A stretch of DNA of 64,000 nucleotides from assembly GCF_002804245.1 (NCBI RefSeq), contig NZ_CP024968.1, positions 186,001-250,000 on the forward strand, read 5' to 3'. This document shows, piece after piece, positions 22,897 to 29,112 of the stretch. The notes under the pieces were generated by a model that did not search any database, was not told where the DNA came from, and saw only the letters and a program-made list of their open reading frames with translations. The stretch comes from Mesoplasma coleopterae (GTDB lineage: Bacteria; Bacillota_I; Bacilli_A; Mycoplasmatales; Mycoplasmataceae). Each line of letters starts with the position of its first letter. Positions within the stretch are counted from its first letter, which is position 1. The translations under genes and the position numbers were made by a program.

Positions 22897-22919
22897 AAAA
22901 GAAGCAATTGAGTATGTAA

Positions 22920-22939
22920 TCATCTAATATCCAGTTTTC
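22920..22939 (+). other. Right arm of 23S rRNA processing stem
   Basis: TCATCTAATATCCAGTTTTC pairs with 19870-19889, with one mismatch or bulge near the centre. Confidence 0.78.
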
Positions 22940-22960
22940 AGAGAACAATTTAAAAAAAGA

Positions 22961-23067
22961 TCTGGTGGTCATAGCGTAGAGGTCACACCTGTTCCCATAC
23001 CGAACACAGAAGTTAAGCTCTACAGCGTCGACGATATTGCATTGTGAGAAAATAGAACGCTGCCAGT
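22961..23067 (+). rRNA. 5S ribosomal RNA
   Basis: About 107 bases from CTGGTGGTCATAGCG to CGCTGCCAG, with the conserved CCGAACACAGAAGTTAAGC. It is the third gene of the operon. Confidence 0.96.
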
Positions 23068-23072
23068 TTGTG

Positions 23073-23099
23073 AAAGAATCCGTAAGGATTCTTTTTTTA
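23073..23099 (+). terminator. rRNA operon terminator
   Basis: AAAGAATCC-gtaa-GGATTCTTT plus a T run directly after 5S. It separates rRNA transcription from the lanthipeptide locus that begins 60 bases on. Confidence 0.9.
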
Positions 23100-23157
23100 T
23101 TTAATTATTGATTTATAAGAGTAATATCTTTCATAAATAGAAAGGAAGGCGAAATTC

Positions 23158-23262
23158 ATGACAATTAATGAAATTCTAGATTTACAAATAAATACAGAAA
23201 AAGAAACACCTGTTTTTGCGAGTGAGGCGATAATTCAAATAACAATTATTTGTAAAGCATAA
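23158..23262 (+). CDS. Putative class III lanthipeptide precursor peptide
   Basis: A 34-residue peptide starting MTINEILDLQINTEK. It is preceded by one of the strongest ribosome-binding sites in the window, AAAGGAAGG at 23141-23149. Residues 6-10 read ILDLQ, matching the (I/L)-x-x-L-Q amphipathic leader motif by which class III LanKC enzymes bind their substrates. The C-terminal part has Ser22, Thr29 and a single Cys32 near the end (TIICKA). This would allow a methyllanthionine ring Thr29-Cys32 and possibly a further Ser22 dehydration or labionin-like bridge, although the Ser-Thr spacing is longer than in labyrinthopeptins. A terminator hairpin follows at once, then the LanKC gene. The leader-core boundary is unknown, and the assignment is inferred from motif plus context. 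Confidence 0.85.
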   Translation: MTINEILDLQINTEKETPVFASEAIIQITIICKA

Positions 23263-23277
23263 AAATTTTTATTTCTT

Positions 23278-23309
23278 GACTAATGTTTTTAGGCATTAGT
23301 CTTTTTATT
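23278..23309 (+). terminator. Terminator/attenuator between precursor and synthetase genes
   Basis: GACTAATG (23278-23285) pairs perfectly with CATTAGTC (23294-23301) and is followed by TTTTTATT. It lies 15 bases after the precursor stop. Partial read-through would give much precursor and little enzyme, as is usual in RiPP clusters. Confidence 0.85.
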
Positions 23310-23327
23310 CATGAATTTAACTTAAAA

Positions 23328-25574
23328 ATGTATAGAAAAAAACGTGATTTAAATTATATTTATTATTTAAACCATAAAACTTTTAATAAAATACCGAAAT
23401 TAGGATGAAAGATACACTTATCAGCAAATTTAAAAAATTACAAAAAATTATTAAATATTACAAAAAAAATTTGTTTTAAATTTAATTTAAATTTTAAATA
23501 TCAAACAAGTTATAAAAAAATTATTGAAGATTCGCAAAAACATACAAATAAATTTTCAACAGGAAAATTTATAACTATTTATTGCTTAAATCAAAAGCAA
23601 TTTATAAATATTATAAATATTTTATATTCAAAAACAAAAGAAATAGAAGGCCCTTTCATTTTTTCTGATAGAAGATTTAAAGATTCAAAATGTATTTACT
23701 ACAGATATGGGATTTTAAAAGGTGAAAACTGTTATGTTTTCGGTGAAGAAAGATTAATAGAAATGAAAAAAAATCAATATTATTCTGAAAATCTAACAAA
23801 ACCTTTTTATTTAAACAAAAAAGATCCACTAGAAAGAGAGTACAAAAAATATAATTTTTACAAATTAAAAAAACTTAATAAGGAATATTTTATTAAAAAT
23901 ATCATTAAAGAAAATAATTCAGGTAATGTTTATATGGGTTATTTAGAAAATAAGAAAAAAATAATAATTAGAGAATTTAGACCAAATACACTTTTGGTGA
24001 AAAAAAATATAGATTCATTATATTTTGCTAAAAATCTTGAAAAAGTTCAATATAAATGTAATTTACTTAACAAAAGCATATCACCAAAATTAATTGATTC
24101 ATTTTATGAATGAGAAAATTATTATATTATAGAGGAGTTTATTGAAGGTATAAATTTAAATCAATGAGTGATGACCAATAACCCATTTATATGTAACCAA
24201 AATAACCCATCAAATAAGGAAATTAAAAATTATGTTAGTAAATCTCTTGAAATATTTCAAAAAATAGTCAATAAGATTAAAATACTAAAAGATAATAAAA
24301 TTATTCATGGAGATTTAAAATTAGATAATATAATGATAAAAAATGATGAACCAATATTAATTGATTTTGAATCATCAAATTTTTTGTATGATTTTAAGCC
24401 ATATTTGAGAAATTCAGAACATAACTATTTTTATAAAAAACAAAGCTGCGATGAAATAAGTTTGCTTTTTATTTTATTGGACTTATTTGCCCCTTTTTCT
24501 TTTTTACTTCCTATGCAAAAAGAGATAAAAATTAATGAAAGATTATCTTATGTATGTAATCTTTTTAATATTGATATTCAAATCTTTGAGAAACTTATAA
24601 ATAAATTAAATAAAAGAACATTAAAAATTACTGACTTTAATTTTTCGACTTTATTTTTATTAAAAAATAACAATAATATTCAAAAAAATAAAATAACACT
24701 AAAATATGAAACGAAAACAATGTGAACAAAAAAAACCAAGAAATTATTTTACCCTAAAAATGTATATAATATTCAATTAAATAATTATCAAACAAAATTT
24801 TGCAATTTATTTTTATTAAAAAATAATTTTTCAGAAAACACATTTAAAAGTAAATTTAATAATAAAATGCTTAAAGATTATAAAAAAGAAATAATGAAAA
24901 AAATAGATTTTCTATTATTTATTAAAGATTTTTCTTTTAAAAATGGATTATCTGGAATAGGTTTTTTTCTTTTAAAAATTTATAATAATGAAGATTTTCA
25001 ATTAAATAAAATTGTAGAAAAAATTTATTACAGCGCTATTGCTGAAATTGAAAATATTTCAAATTCTTTTAATTTAACTTTCGATTTGGGCATTTCAGGA
25101 ATTCTCTTTTTTATTTATCATTATGAAAAACAAAATAAATTAAAAAATAATTTTGATTTTTTAGAAATTATAAAAAAAATTGAAAATGAGTTAGTTAATA
25201 ATTTAAAAAATGGATGTTATGTTACCAAAAATATAGCATCTCCTTATTTTGGTAATGGCACATCAGGAATTCTCTATATTTTGTCACTTTTTAATAAAAA
25301 CAAAAAAAAGTTTTATTGTAATAAAATATTAGAAATTAATTTGCAGCTTTGCTCAAAAACAGATTTTTTATATGGATTACCAGGCATTTTATTTGTATTG
25401 TATAAATTAAGTGAAAGTCAAACATCCTTATTAAAAATAAACGAAATAAAAAAAATTTTAAATACTTTAAAAGACAAAAATGGTTTTTTTAGAGCACAAG
25501 TTGAAAATGATCATAGTAACTATTTTTTAAATACACTAATTGGTCCTTACGTTCTTGAAATTATTTTAAAATAA
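23328..25574 (+). CDS. Class III lanthipeptide synthetase (LanKC)
   Basis: A 748-residue trifunctional enzyme that would phosphorylate precursor Ser/Thr, eliminate phosphate and cyclise onto Cys. N-terminal lyase region: 'GWKIHLSA' (Lys28, His30), 'STGKFITIY' (Lys80) and 'GPFIFSDRRF' followed by YYRYG (Arg126), all hallmarks of LanKC/LanL. Kinase domain about 190-470: catalytic HGDLKLDN (Asp329, Asn334) and metal-binding DFE (Asp346). The expected 'K-E-x-R-P' ATP-Lys reads IIIREFRP, with Arg215 in place of Lys. LanC-like region from about 535: four Gly-containing helix repeats (NGLSGIGFFLL, DLGISGILFF, GNGTSGILYIL, YGLPGILFVL), but no WCYG or CHG zinc ligands, which points to class III rather than IV. 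It is somewhat short for the family. An in-frame ATG at 23283 lies inside the terminator hairpin and is unlikely. The gene is extremely AT-rich. Confidence 0.92.
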
Positions 25575-25645
25575 ATTTTTAATTGTTATTTTATATTAAA
25601 AAGAGTATGATTTCCTTAATATAGAAAAATAAAAGGGATGAATAT

Positions 25646-27235
25646 ATGAAAAATGTCTATGCAAAAAATAAAATGGGTATTCTATGGTTTTCTATTCTTG
25701 CTTTTATAGCTGCAGCAGCATTAGTATTTTCTGGATACGTTATTAGTTATTTAATAAATACAGCTGTTGATGTAGTCAATGGAGCATCAGAAAAAATGAA
25801 TTTGCTTTTTATAGAAATTGGTGTTTGTGCTTTATCTTTTGGAATATGCTTATTATTTTCATACTTGCAAACTCAGCAAAAAAATAAAATAATTAAAGAA
25901 TTTAATTTATATTTAAGAAATAAAGTCTCTAATAAAATTATAAATTTGGATTTAAAAGATTTGGATTCTAAAAATAAAGGAGATCTTATAAGTTGATTAA
26001 CAAACGATATAAATCAAATAGAAAGTAAAAATTTTGAAAATATGTTTTTATTTATTGAAACATTTTTAACAGCATTTTTAGCAATAATAGCAATATTTTT
26101 ATTAAATTGAATAACGGGATTAGTAACAATTTTATGTTTTATTATTTTATTAATTGTTCCTTCGCTTTTACAAAAATCCATGGTTAAAATAGTAAACAAA
26201 GTTTCGTTAAAACAAGAAGAATTTTCTTCAAAAGTTGAAGATGTAATTTCGGGATATAGAGAATTTTTATATAATGATAAAACAGAAATCTTTAGTGAAA
26301 TAATCAGTCAAAAGAGTTTTGAACTAGAAACTTATAAACAAAAAAATAAAAATATTGAAAATTTACAGATAACTGGAATTAATTCAATTGGTGCTATTTG
26401 TCAAATTGGTCTTGTTATAATGACTGTTATATTAGCTTCATATAAAATAGCACCAATAGGATTAGTTTTTGCTGTTCCTCAATTGGCTGGAAATTTTTTA
26501 GGTAATGCGCAAAGATCGCTAGGAGCTTTTTTTGGCTTATTAGGAAGCAAAGAATTGTTTAAAAAATTCATTTTTAAAAATACAGAACTTAAGATCAATG
26601 AAATTGAGCCTTTTAACTCAATTAAAATTAAAAACTTAAATTTAAGTATTAATGAAAATAATTTATATAATAGTTTAAATTTTGAAATTAAAAAGGGTAA
26701 GAAATATTTAATTTCAGGTAGAAGTGGTGTGGGTAAAAGCACACTTATGAAAATTTTATTTGGCCTAATATCTGAATATGATGGTGAAATTCTTTGAAAT
26801 AATGATTTAAATTTATTAAAAATTAGTAGCAAACAAATTTGAAATCAAATTTATTATGTTCAACAGGAAACAATTATTTTTGATGCAAGTTTTAAAGAAA
26901 ATATTACTTTATTCGATTCGTCAATTAGTGATAAAGAAATTTTTAATATTGTTAAACTAGTTAATTTACAAGAGTTAGTATCAAAAAACAACAATATTTT
27001 ATCATTTAAATGCAAAGATATTTCTAAAGGTGAAGCTCAAAGAATCGCAATAGGTAGAGCACTGTTATCAAATAAAAAAGTTATTTATTTAGATGAACCT
27101 ACAGCTAGTTTAGATAAAAGTAATACTGAATTAATAGAGAATTTAATTCTAAAAAACTCTGATTTAACAGTTTTATTTATTTCACATACTTCTGATATTC
27201 AAAATCAAATGTTTGACAAGGTTATAAAGTTGTAA
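25646..27235 (+). CDS. ABC exporter (TMD-NBD fusion), probable lanthipeptide transporter
   Basis: A 529-residue ABCB-type half-transporter. Residues about 1-300 hold the membrane domain with roughly six helices. The ATPase follows: Walker A GRSGVGKST (Lys364), degenerate signature ISKGE at 459-463 instead of LSGGQ, Walker B VIYLDEPT, and switch His in FISHTSD. It starts 71 bases after the LanKC stop with an AAAGGGATG ribosome-binding site, so it is likely the export (and perhaps self-protection) gene of the locus. There is no N-terminal C39 peptidase domain, so the leader is not removed by this protein. Cargo assignment rests on context; a lipid or drug exporter is the main alternative. Confidence 0.88.
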
Positions 27236-27289
27236 TAGTGAAATGAAAGATCTTAAAAACAATTTTAAAAATACGAATTAAAAATGTAA

Positions 27290-28100
27290 CTGCAACACTT
27301 ATCAAAAAATAATCTGATAGAAATTTCAGTTTCTTTGATACAAAAAAGCAACTTGCGACTGATTAAAGCCCAAAAAAGTTAGGATCAATAATTATAAAAA
27401 CAATTTTAAATGAAAAACTATCTATAAAGTGTTAAAAAAGTTTGTTTCTTTTATAGCTAAAAAATTGAATAAAAATTGATCAACAATTTTCTGAGGAAAT
27501 AAAAGAAATAGACCGCAATTATTTAGAAACCAAAGATGTGCAGTTTTCTTATAGACATTAACAATATTTGTTCATTAAAATGAAAGAAACAAATTAAAAT
27601 AAAATCTAAAAGACTTACTTTTACCTAGATTTTGATGAAAAAAATTCAATAAATATGAGCATTGTCTATAAGAAATTTCAAAAATGAATTTAATTCCTAT
27701 TACTTATAAACCTAAAAATATTAATCAAAGAAAAAATATTAGTCATTTTAATTGATTTAGTTATTAGCTGTAATGTAGTTTGAAAATCATAATCATACTA
27801 TTTTAAAAGAGTTACCATAGAAGGGTTTGCAATTAAAATGGGAAATAAAACCATGAAGCATGCAAATAAAAAAATATGAATTAATTGCAAAAGAAAATTT
27901 AAATATTAAATCAATTACAAAAAACAATAGAAAAGAATTTAGTCTTCTGCATGAAGTTGTGCAAGAACTTAACCTATGACGTTATACATGTAGTACATAT
28001 ACCTCTTATGAAAAAGATACTGATGAAAACGTTAATAAATTAATCAGATGATATTTACATAAGAAAACTAATTTTAAAAGATCCTAATATAATTTAAATA
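27290..28100 (+). pseudogene. Decayed IS30-family transposase
   Basis: No intact frame, but protein fragments of an IS30-type DDE transposase can be read across stops and frameshifts. The N-terminal part has '..YLETKDVQFSYRH' near 27510-27560. The C-terminal part has 'KYELIAKENLNIKSITKNN' near 27870 and then the strongest signature, YEKDTDENVNKLIRWYLHKK at about 28008-28067. That last matches the family's 'WERGTNENxNGLIRQYxPK', containing the catalytic Glu region. The start shares 'tttgatacaaaa' with the relic at 45757. The element is clearly dead, and its inverted repeats could not be delimited. It fills most of the 1-kb gap after the exporter gene. Confidence 0.75.
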
Positions 28101-28272
28101 TTAAATGAAATAAATAAATTTTTTCATTTGCAAAATTCTGAACTACAAATCAGCTTATGAATTTTAGAAACATTCGCTTAGAAGCTCTGCACTTCCAATT
28201 TTAATATGTATTTGAAAATTATTTTAATGTTTATTTGATAAAATAATTAAATAGAAAAAGGAAAAGCATGAA

Positions 28273-29112
28273 ATGAAAAAAATTATAGCATTTAGTGATT
28301 GTGATGGAACTTTATTATTTGATGATTACAAGTTTTCTGATTATACAATTAACACAGTTAAAAATATTTATGAAAATGGAAGTTACTTAATTCCAGTTAC
28401 AGCCAGAACTTTAAAAAACTTAAAAAATATAGCAAAACAATTAAAAATTGATGAGCTTGGGGGTATTATTGCTGGTAATAATGGAGCTCAAATTTTTGAT
28501 TTTAAAACTGGAAAATATATACTAAATAAAACAGTAGACAAAAACATTATTAATGAAGTATTTGATTTATATTACACAGAAGCTGATGAAGAAAAAGAAT
28601 GCAAAGTTAATTTTGCTTCTGAAGAAATTGTATATTCATTTGGTGAATCAGAAAACACCAAAAAATGAGCAGAAATTATGGAACAACAATTTAAAGTTAT
28701 TTCAAAATCAAATGAAATTGTAGAAGATATCGTAAGTATTTCTATAATAACTAAAAAAGGAACAGATTTAGATACTTATTTACATCATTTTAATAAAATA
28801 AAATCAAAATATGGAAATGACTACAGAATTGATAATTACCATAACAGAGTAATAAGTATTGCTCCAAAAGATATTGATAAAGGATATGCTGTTGAAATAA
28901 TTAATAAATATTTAAACAATACAGGTCAATATGAAACTTATGGTTTTGGAGATAGTTACAATGATTTTCCTTTAATAGCAGCAGTTGATTATGGAATAGC
29001 TATGAAAAATGGATTAGATGAATTAAAAGAAACAGCTTATGATATTACTGAATACCCAAATTATCAAGACGGTGTAGCAAGATACATTAATGACAAAATT
29101 TTTAAAAAATAA
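28273..29112 (+). CDS. Cof-type HAD-family sugar/nucleotide phosphatase
   Basis: A 279-residue haloacid-dehalogenase hydrolase of the Cof/YidA class. It has the nucleophile motif DCDGTLL at residues 9-15, 'VTARTLKN' as motif II, a cap domain in the middle, and the C-terminal acidic motif 'GFGDSYNDFPLI' followed by 'GIAMKNG'. Such enzymes dephosphorylate sugar phosphates or nucleotides, with broad specificity, so no substrate is assigned. The frame spans one TGA read as Trp (28669-28671). The start is the second ATG after an AAAGGAAAAG ribosome-binding site; the ATG five bases upstream is in another frame. Confidence 0.9.

Follow-up and report, generated by a model that had tools for sequence, protein, structure and literature searches.

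Does a 34-codon open reading frame (ORF) behind a ribosomal RNA (rRNA) operon of Mesoplasma coleopterae encode the precursor of a lanthipeptide, and which ring would its product carry? The ORF lies in a 64,000-nucleotide stretch of contig NZ_CP024968.1 (the window, taken at its full length), in a genome of 800 kb that forms one contig; it begins with the ATG at 23158, ends with the TAA at 23262 and encodes the peptide MTINEILDLQINTEKETPVFASEAIIQITIICKA. This ORF is a real gene and very probably the lanthipeptide precursor gene lanA. Moreover, with a probability of roughly 0.8, as judged from sequence comparison, lanA belongs to a three-gene class III cluster of a Mollicute (lanA, a terminator, lanKC and an ABC exporter), for whose product one methyllanthionine ring is predicted.

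The probable precursor ORF and its synthetase

A preliminary description of this locus had placed the ORF at these coordinates, after the rRNA operon and with a strong Shine-Dalgarno site, and all of this was confirmed. The 5S gene ends at 23068, upstream of lanA. The Shine-Dalgarno sequence matches at 7 of 8 bases, the highest value among the 22 intergenic ORFs of 25-60 amino acids that start with ATG in the window (the runner-up has 5), and the ORF is therefore more than a chance reading frame. The residues described earlier were likewise found in their places, namely ILDLQ at residues 6-10, Thr13, Thr17, Ser22, Thr29 and the sole cysteine, Cys32. The stretch ILDLQI at residues 6-11 is a leader motif of the LxLQ type of class III LanA peptides, in a short peptide adjoining LanKC, and two Ser/Thr residues lie within the C-terminal 14 residues. 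The peptide matched no Pfam or NCBIfam family and thus no curated precursor family, and no informative Pfam or NCBIfam family was found for the 18 scanned members of the precursor set described below. A second hit of the peptide within the window genome was weak (E 0.08) and was put down to chance.

The LanKC enzyme that the preliminary description had assigned to this peptide is encoded directly downstream. Its gene, like the other long frames near lanA, is readable through only when TGA is read as Trp, as in Mollicutes. The end of lanA is separated by 65 bp from the likely start of lanKC at 23328, which is preferred because the alternative in-frame ATG at 23283 sits within the hairpin at 23278-23301. 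The protein matched the Pfam domains RamC_N, Pkinase and LANC_like, all over the cut-off, and thus has the three domains of a LanKC; its top matches in the PDB were the solved LanKC structures 8sam, 8sap and 8sao (1e-41). The NCBIfam class III model NF038151 (6e-79) was ahead of the class IV model NF038150 (3e-38) and the cyclase has no zinc ligands (no Cys/Cys-His in the cyclase motifs), which together place the enzyme in class III.

The residues of ThurKC, with the numbers of PMC10604976, were mapped by hand onto the window LanKC via the structure-search alignment. Seven of the eight catalytic ThurKC lyase residues are identical (K65, H67, K94, K108, K117, D152 and R163 correspond to K28, H30, K57, K71, K80, D114 and R126), and the eighth, R191, is replaced by Lys148. 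In addition, the kinase domain contains HGD and the class III DFE motif. A structure prediction of LanKC from a five-row alignment was poor (mean predicted local distance difference test score 46.5) and was not used.

The (S/T)xxC pattern at related loci

LanKC was present in 3 of 60 genomes of the family sample: that of the window, the sister genome G008 (98%) and G003 (30%, with a split frame). Of the 298 genomes in the order sample, 23 have the RamC_N domain; these belong to eight genera in three families. The class sample has it in 6 of 395 genomes, five of them within the order; the sole RamC_N locus outside the order, L093, showed no (S/T)xxC precursor. In total, 24 LanKC places were examined (the window, L007 in G008, L008 and L036-L056). 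Of these, 19 have a short precursor candidate nearby, and a twentieth candidate, at L047, is split by an insertion. The candidates mostly lie upstream on the same strand; those at L008, L053 and L056 are on the opposite strand, and that at L036 precedes exporter genes. The lanKC frame is split or degenerate at L008, L042, L048, L052, L054, L055 and L056, most of which still adjoin a precursor candidate.

A mechanical rule was set up from the window peptide alone: an ORF with ATG of 30-95 amino acids, with a Shine-Dalgarno match of at least 4 bases, within 700 bases upstream and with a core of T, two residues out of I, L, V, F and M, and then C. With the window and L007 left out, since the L007 peptide is the same as that of the window, such an ORF preceded 12 of the 22 other LanKC loci versus 1 of 110 control gene starts. 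This single control match is the own precursor of L036 ahead of its exporters. When the Shine-Dalgarno demand was dropped, the counts were 12 of 22 and 2 of 110.

The position of Ser and Thr relative to Cys was counted in 19 peptides, with L007 left out and the split core of L047 included. Ser or Thr stands at -3 for 32 of 33 Cys, a figure biased upward because some candidates had been picked using (S/T)xxC, and the other offsets from -8 to +8 give 0-10 of 33, with Ser plus Thr forming 14-18% of the residues. A second candidate at L038 (65 amino acids, TYIC, basic tail) was left out; with it the count is 33 of 34. After one pattern Cys per peptide had been set aside to reduce the bias, 13 of the 14 remaining Cys still had Ser/Thr at -3. 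The (S/T)xxC spacing is kept at distant loci, and the comparison strongly supports the Thr29-x-x-Cys32 ring proposed in the preliminary description. Two (S/T)xxC motifs occur in 13 of the 19 peptides (for example TLIC-TWKC, TILC-TIIC and TLIC-TRIC), and one occurs in the window peptide.

The labionin motif Ser-x2-Ser-x2-5-Cys was found in none of the 19 peptides, and the looser (S/T)-x2-(S/T)-x2-5-Cys in three (L038, L039 and L049). For the window peptide, methyllanthionine is therefore a better guess than labionin, in agreement with the earlier preference for a single ring of this type. The comparison of related loci that had been called for earlier showed conservation in part: the peptide is identical in G008 and the Ser/Thr/Cys spacing is kept afar, but ILDLQ is not strictly kept, the leader motifs being VLDLN or SLDLN elsewhere and LYNYN-like in another family. 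In the close pair G132/G150, the precursor has undergone 4 synonymous and 2 non-synonymous changes, and both ring motifs are kept.

Scanning of contigs with the single window LanKC as query gave no relative, and a 13-row LanKC alignment gave no usable conserved stretch. The search with a four-row alignment matched Mycoplasmoides fastidiosum 4822, Lactobacillus kalixensis and one contig of a viral collection; around the latter two, none of the small ORFs preceded by a ribosome-binding site was an (S/T)xxC precursor. A precursor profile run against the 298 genomes gave 44 at E <= 0.05, but those weaker than 1e-4 are apparently fortuitous. The 13 genomes at E < 1e-4 are all LanKC genomes and none outside these was convincing; the strong matches, being training rows or the G008 copy, add nothing new. 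At L047 (4273-5900), the leader and the core of the precursor are separated by an ORF of 402 amino acids, and lanKC stays open. This ORF gave no Pfam match and is, by its motif, presumably an IS30-type transposase.

Proposed pathway and competing explanations

In the proposed pathway, transcription would start between the two terminator-type hairpins that flank lanA (Table 1), and the second hairpin would leave lanA in excess over lanKC. LanKC would bind the ILDLQI leader of LanA, its kinase domain would phosphorylate Thr29 and perhaps Ser22, and its lyase domain would eliminate the phosphate to give dehydrobutyrine (Dhb) or dehydroalanine. Addition of Cys32 to Dhb29 would then close a single methyllanthionine ring of four residues close to the C-terminus. 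The leader would be removed by some protease outside the cluster, and the exporter would release a small hydrophobic peptide, most likely a bacteriocin or a signal towards related bacteria. No M16_C match was found in the genome for such a protease, the exporter has no peptidase domain, and a search for S9 peptidases gave two weak partial matches only.

The missing M16 type weighs against a class III cluster with a methyllanthionine product, as do the selection bias mentioned above and the following observations. LanKC reaches 266 bits with the class III model of NCBIfam, below the curated cut-off of 575 bits. At 4 of the 24 LanKC places (L040, L050, L051 and L054) no convincing precursor candidate was found, and at about 7 of 24, as judged by ORF length, the lanKC frame is split or degenerate. 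Furthermore, the cyclase of the window LanKC is short and weakly matched, with its best LANC_like stretch covering profile positions 4-131 of 350, and ThurKC Ser726 is replaced by Gly and Phe770/Asp771 by Leu-Tyr or Tyr-Gly, according to the register. Enzymatic ring closure is the step with the least support in the proposed pathway, because the cyclase is short, weakly matched, and devoid of zinc ligands and of these three ThurKC residues.

The same features would be expected if LanA were a substrate of LanKC whose product is dehydrated and has no enzymatic ring, or another crosslink, the shortened cyclase being inactive. The lack of zinc ligands and of ThurKC residues shown to matter, the partial LANC_like match and the nine amino-acid changes between the LanKC proteins of the window and G008, most of which fall past the kinase core, in the linker and cyclase, all agree with this explanation. 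However, nearly all relatives retain a Cys three residues after Thr/Ser, as would fit a reactive Cys. Moreover, class III cyclases do not depend on a metal and lack zinc ligands, and several of the residues found in place of these ligands differ among LanKCs (PMC10604976). A ringless or otherwise crosslinked product is thus considered unlikely.

A cluster that is decaying and non-functional in the window strain would agree with its absence or breakage in sister genomes and with the split lanKC frames of several relatives. However, lanA, lanKC and the exporter gene are each intact both in the window and in G008, which also retains the neighbouring HAD-type gene. Between the two, the 34 codons of lanA differ by 1 synonymous change and no non-synonymous one and the exporter by 4 synonymous and 1 non-synonymous, and in lanKC, with 8 synonymous and 9 non-synonymous changes, the non-synonymous rate (dN) is 0.005 and the synonymous rate (dS) 0.021 (dN/dS about 0.26). 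Decay is accordingly rated as quite improbable. That the ORF is merely a regulatory leader peptide or a chance ORF of the lanKC transcript, with the true substrate elsewhere, is very improbable indeed: it precedes a terminator hairpin in an attenuator-like manner, but it carries the ILDLQ leader and the ring motif, the G008 protein is identical despite a synonymous change, and ORFs of the same type accompany LanKC genes at distant loci, in some cases downstream of them or on the other strand, an arrangement that an attenuator peptide would leave unexplained.

Known systems, the slot behind the rRNA operon and locus layout

Among the closest known systems is the class III system andalusicin/ThurA-ThurKC of Bacillus thuringiensis (PMC10604976), which shares the lyase-kinase-cyclase synthetase, the conserved lyase residues and DFE; its LELQL leader motif resembles ILDLQI, and the leader protease lies outside the cluster there as it would here. 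In contrast, the ThurA product has labionin and 11 dehydrations versus one Thr-x-x-Cys in the window peptide, the window cyclase is shorter and divergent, and an M16 protease was not found in the window genome. The SapB family (PMC7268733, PMC8960859) likewise has a class III enzyme and an LxLQ leader motif, whereas its Ser-x2-Ser-x2-5-Cys motif does not recur in the present peptides and the hosts here are Mollicutes. The class III families III 3 and III 6 (PMC7268733) also have Firmicute hosts, and III 6 clusters contain an ABC transporter but lack a protease; III 3 differs by Sx2Sx3C and a prolyl oligopeptidase. Mollicutes, Tenericutes, Mycoplasma and Spiroplasma are not named in the main text of PMC7268733, nor are Mollicutes in that of a second mining paper. 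Lanthipeptide makers among Mollicutes, Mycoplasma or Spiroplasma were not encountered in the open-licence papers searched, judged mostly by title and abstract, an absence that is not proof.

Four other sister genomes (G010, G012, G011 and G007) have a comparable stretch from the rRNA operon to the HAD gene. The preliminary description had set down orthologous loci without the peptide as counter-evidence; in these four genomes peptide and enzyme are absent together, and the one orthologous locus that retains the enzyme, in G008, has the identical peptide. The exporter follows directly behind the rRNA operon in G010, is broken in the lan slot of G011, and the slot of G007 contains nothing; in G009 the HAD gene had no match at the threshold used. 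In G012, the slot before the same exporter holds a 24-amino-acid ORF with a Shine-Dalgarno sequence and a ThiF-family enzyme (PF00899, 1e-40; L067:3983-5226). A homologous pair with an enzyme at 46% occurs in G005 (L090, minus strand), with other genes behind it, and both peptides start with MKEL and end with NWYF plus V or I. The 24-amino-acid peptide and its ThiF-family enzyme are a probable second pair of the ribosomally synthesised and post-translationally modified peptide (RiPP) type. The slot seems to be a place where RiPP modules replace one another: in sister genomes it holds lan, the ThiF pair, only the exporter (intact or broken) or nothing.

On a narrow balance, the comparisons favour the wider view that Mollicutes hold their own widespread class III branch, with one or two tandem (Ser/Thr)-x-x-Cys rings in place of labionins and a shortened, metal-free cyclase, and that in the genus of the window a LanKC or ThiF-like module and its peptide are swapped before a shared exporter, in the slot behind the rRNA operon. 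A conserved family of (S/T)xxC peptides would mean that simple methyllanthionine rings are products of class III enzymes in wall-less bacteria with 0.8-Mb genomes, and would be a sign of peptide-based competition or signalling among mycoplasmas and their relatives. For work on metal-free ring closure, the lanA peptide would offer a very small substrate. The exchangeable slot suggests a way in which lan-type clusters move between species.

Table 1. Features of the lan locus, in window coordinates
Feature	Position	Strand	Basis
Intrinsic terminator of the rRNA operon, before lanA	23072..23095	+	Hairpin scan; fold -12 kcal/mol, z -4.6
Shine-Dalgarno AAAGGAAGG of lanA	23141..23149	+	8 nt 5' of ATG
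lanA, 34-amino-acid precursor peptide (very probable)	23158..23262	+	ORF translation; comparison with G008 and distant LanKC loci
Leader motif ILDLQ, residues 6-10, LxLQ/LELQL type	23173..23187	+	Set against ThurA LELQL (PMC10604976) and LxLQ (PMC7268733)
T29-I-I-C32, predicted methyllanthionine ring	23242..23253	+	(S/T)xxC conserved across loci
Terminator/attenuator between lanA and lanKC	23278..23301	+	Hairpin scan; fold -10.9 kcal/mol, z -3.7
lanKC, class III lanthionine synthetase (lyase-kinase-cyclase), 748 amino acids	23328..25574	+	Domain and structure matches; TGA = Trp
ABC exporter (membrane + ATPase), no peptidase domain	25646..27235	+	Domain search; orthologues in sister genomes

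The scan found two terminator-type hairpins in 22900-28300, versus 0.4 in shuffles. Plasmid records contained nothing resembling the lan region. The stretch of about 1 kb between the exporter and the HAD gene (27236-28272) shows no clear gene and may be what is left of a lost gene or a mobile element. The rRNA-operon terminator has the loop sequence GTAA in the window and TTAC in G008, as would result from an inversion of the hairpin.
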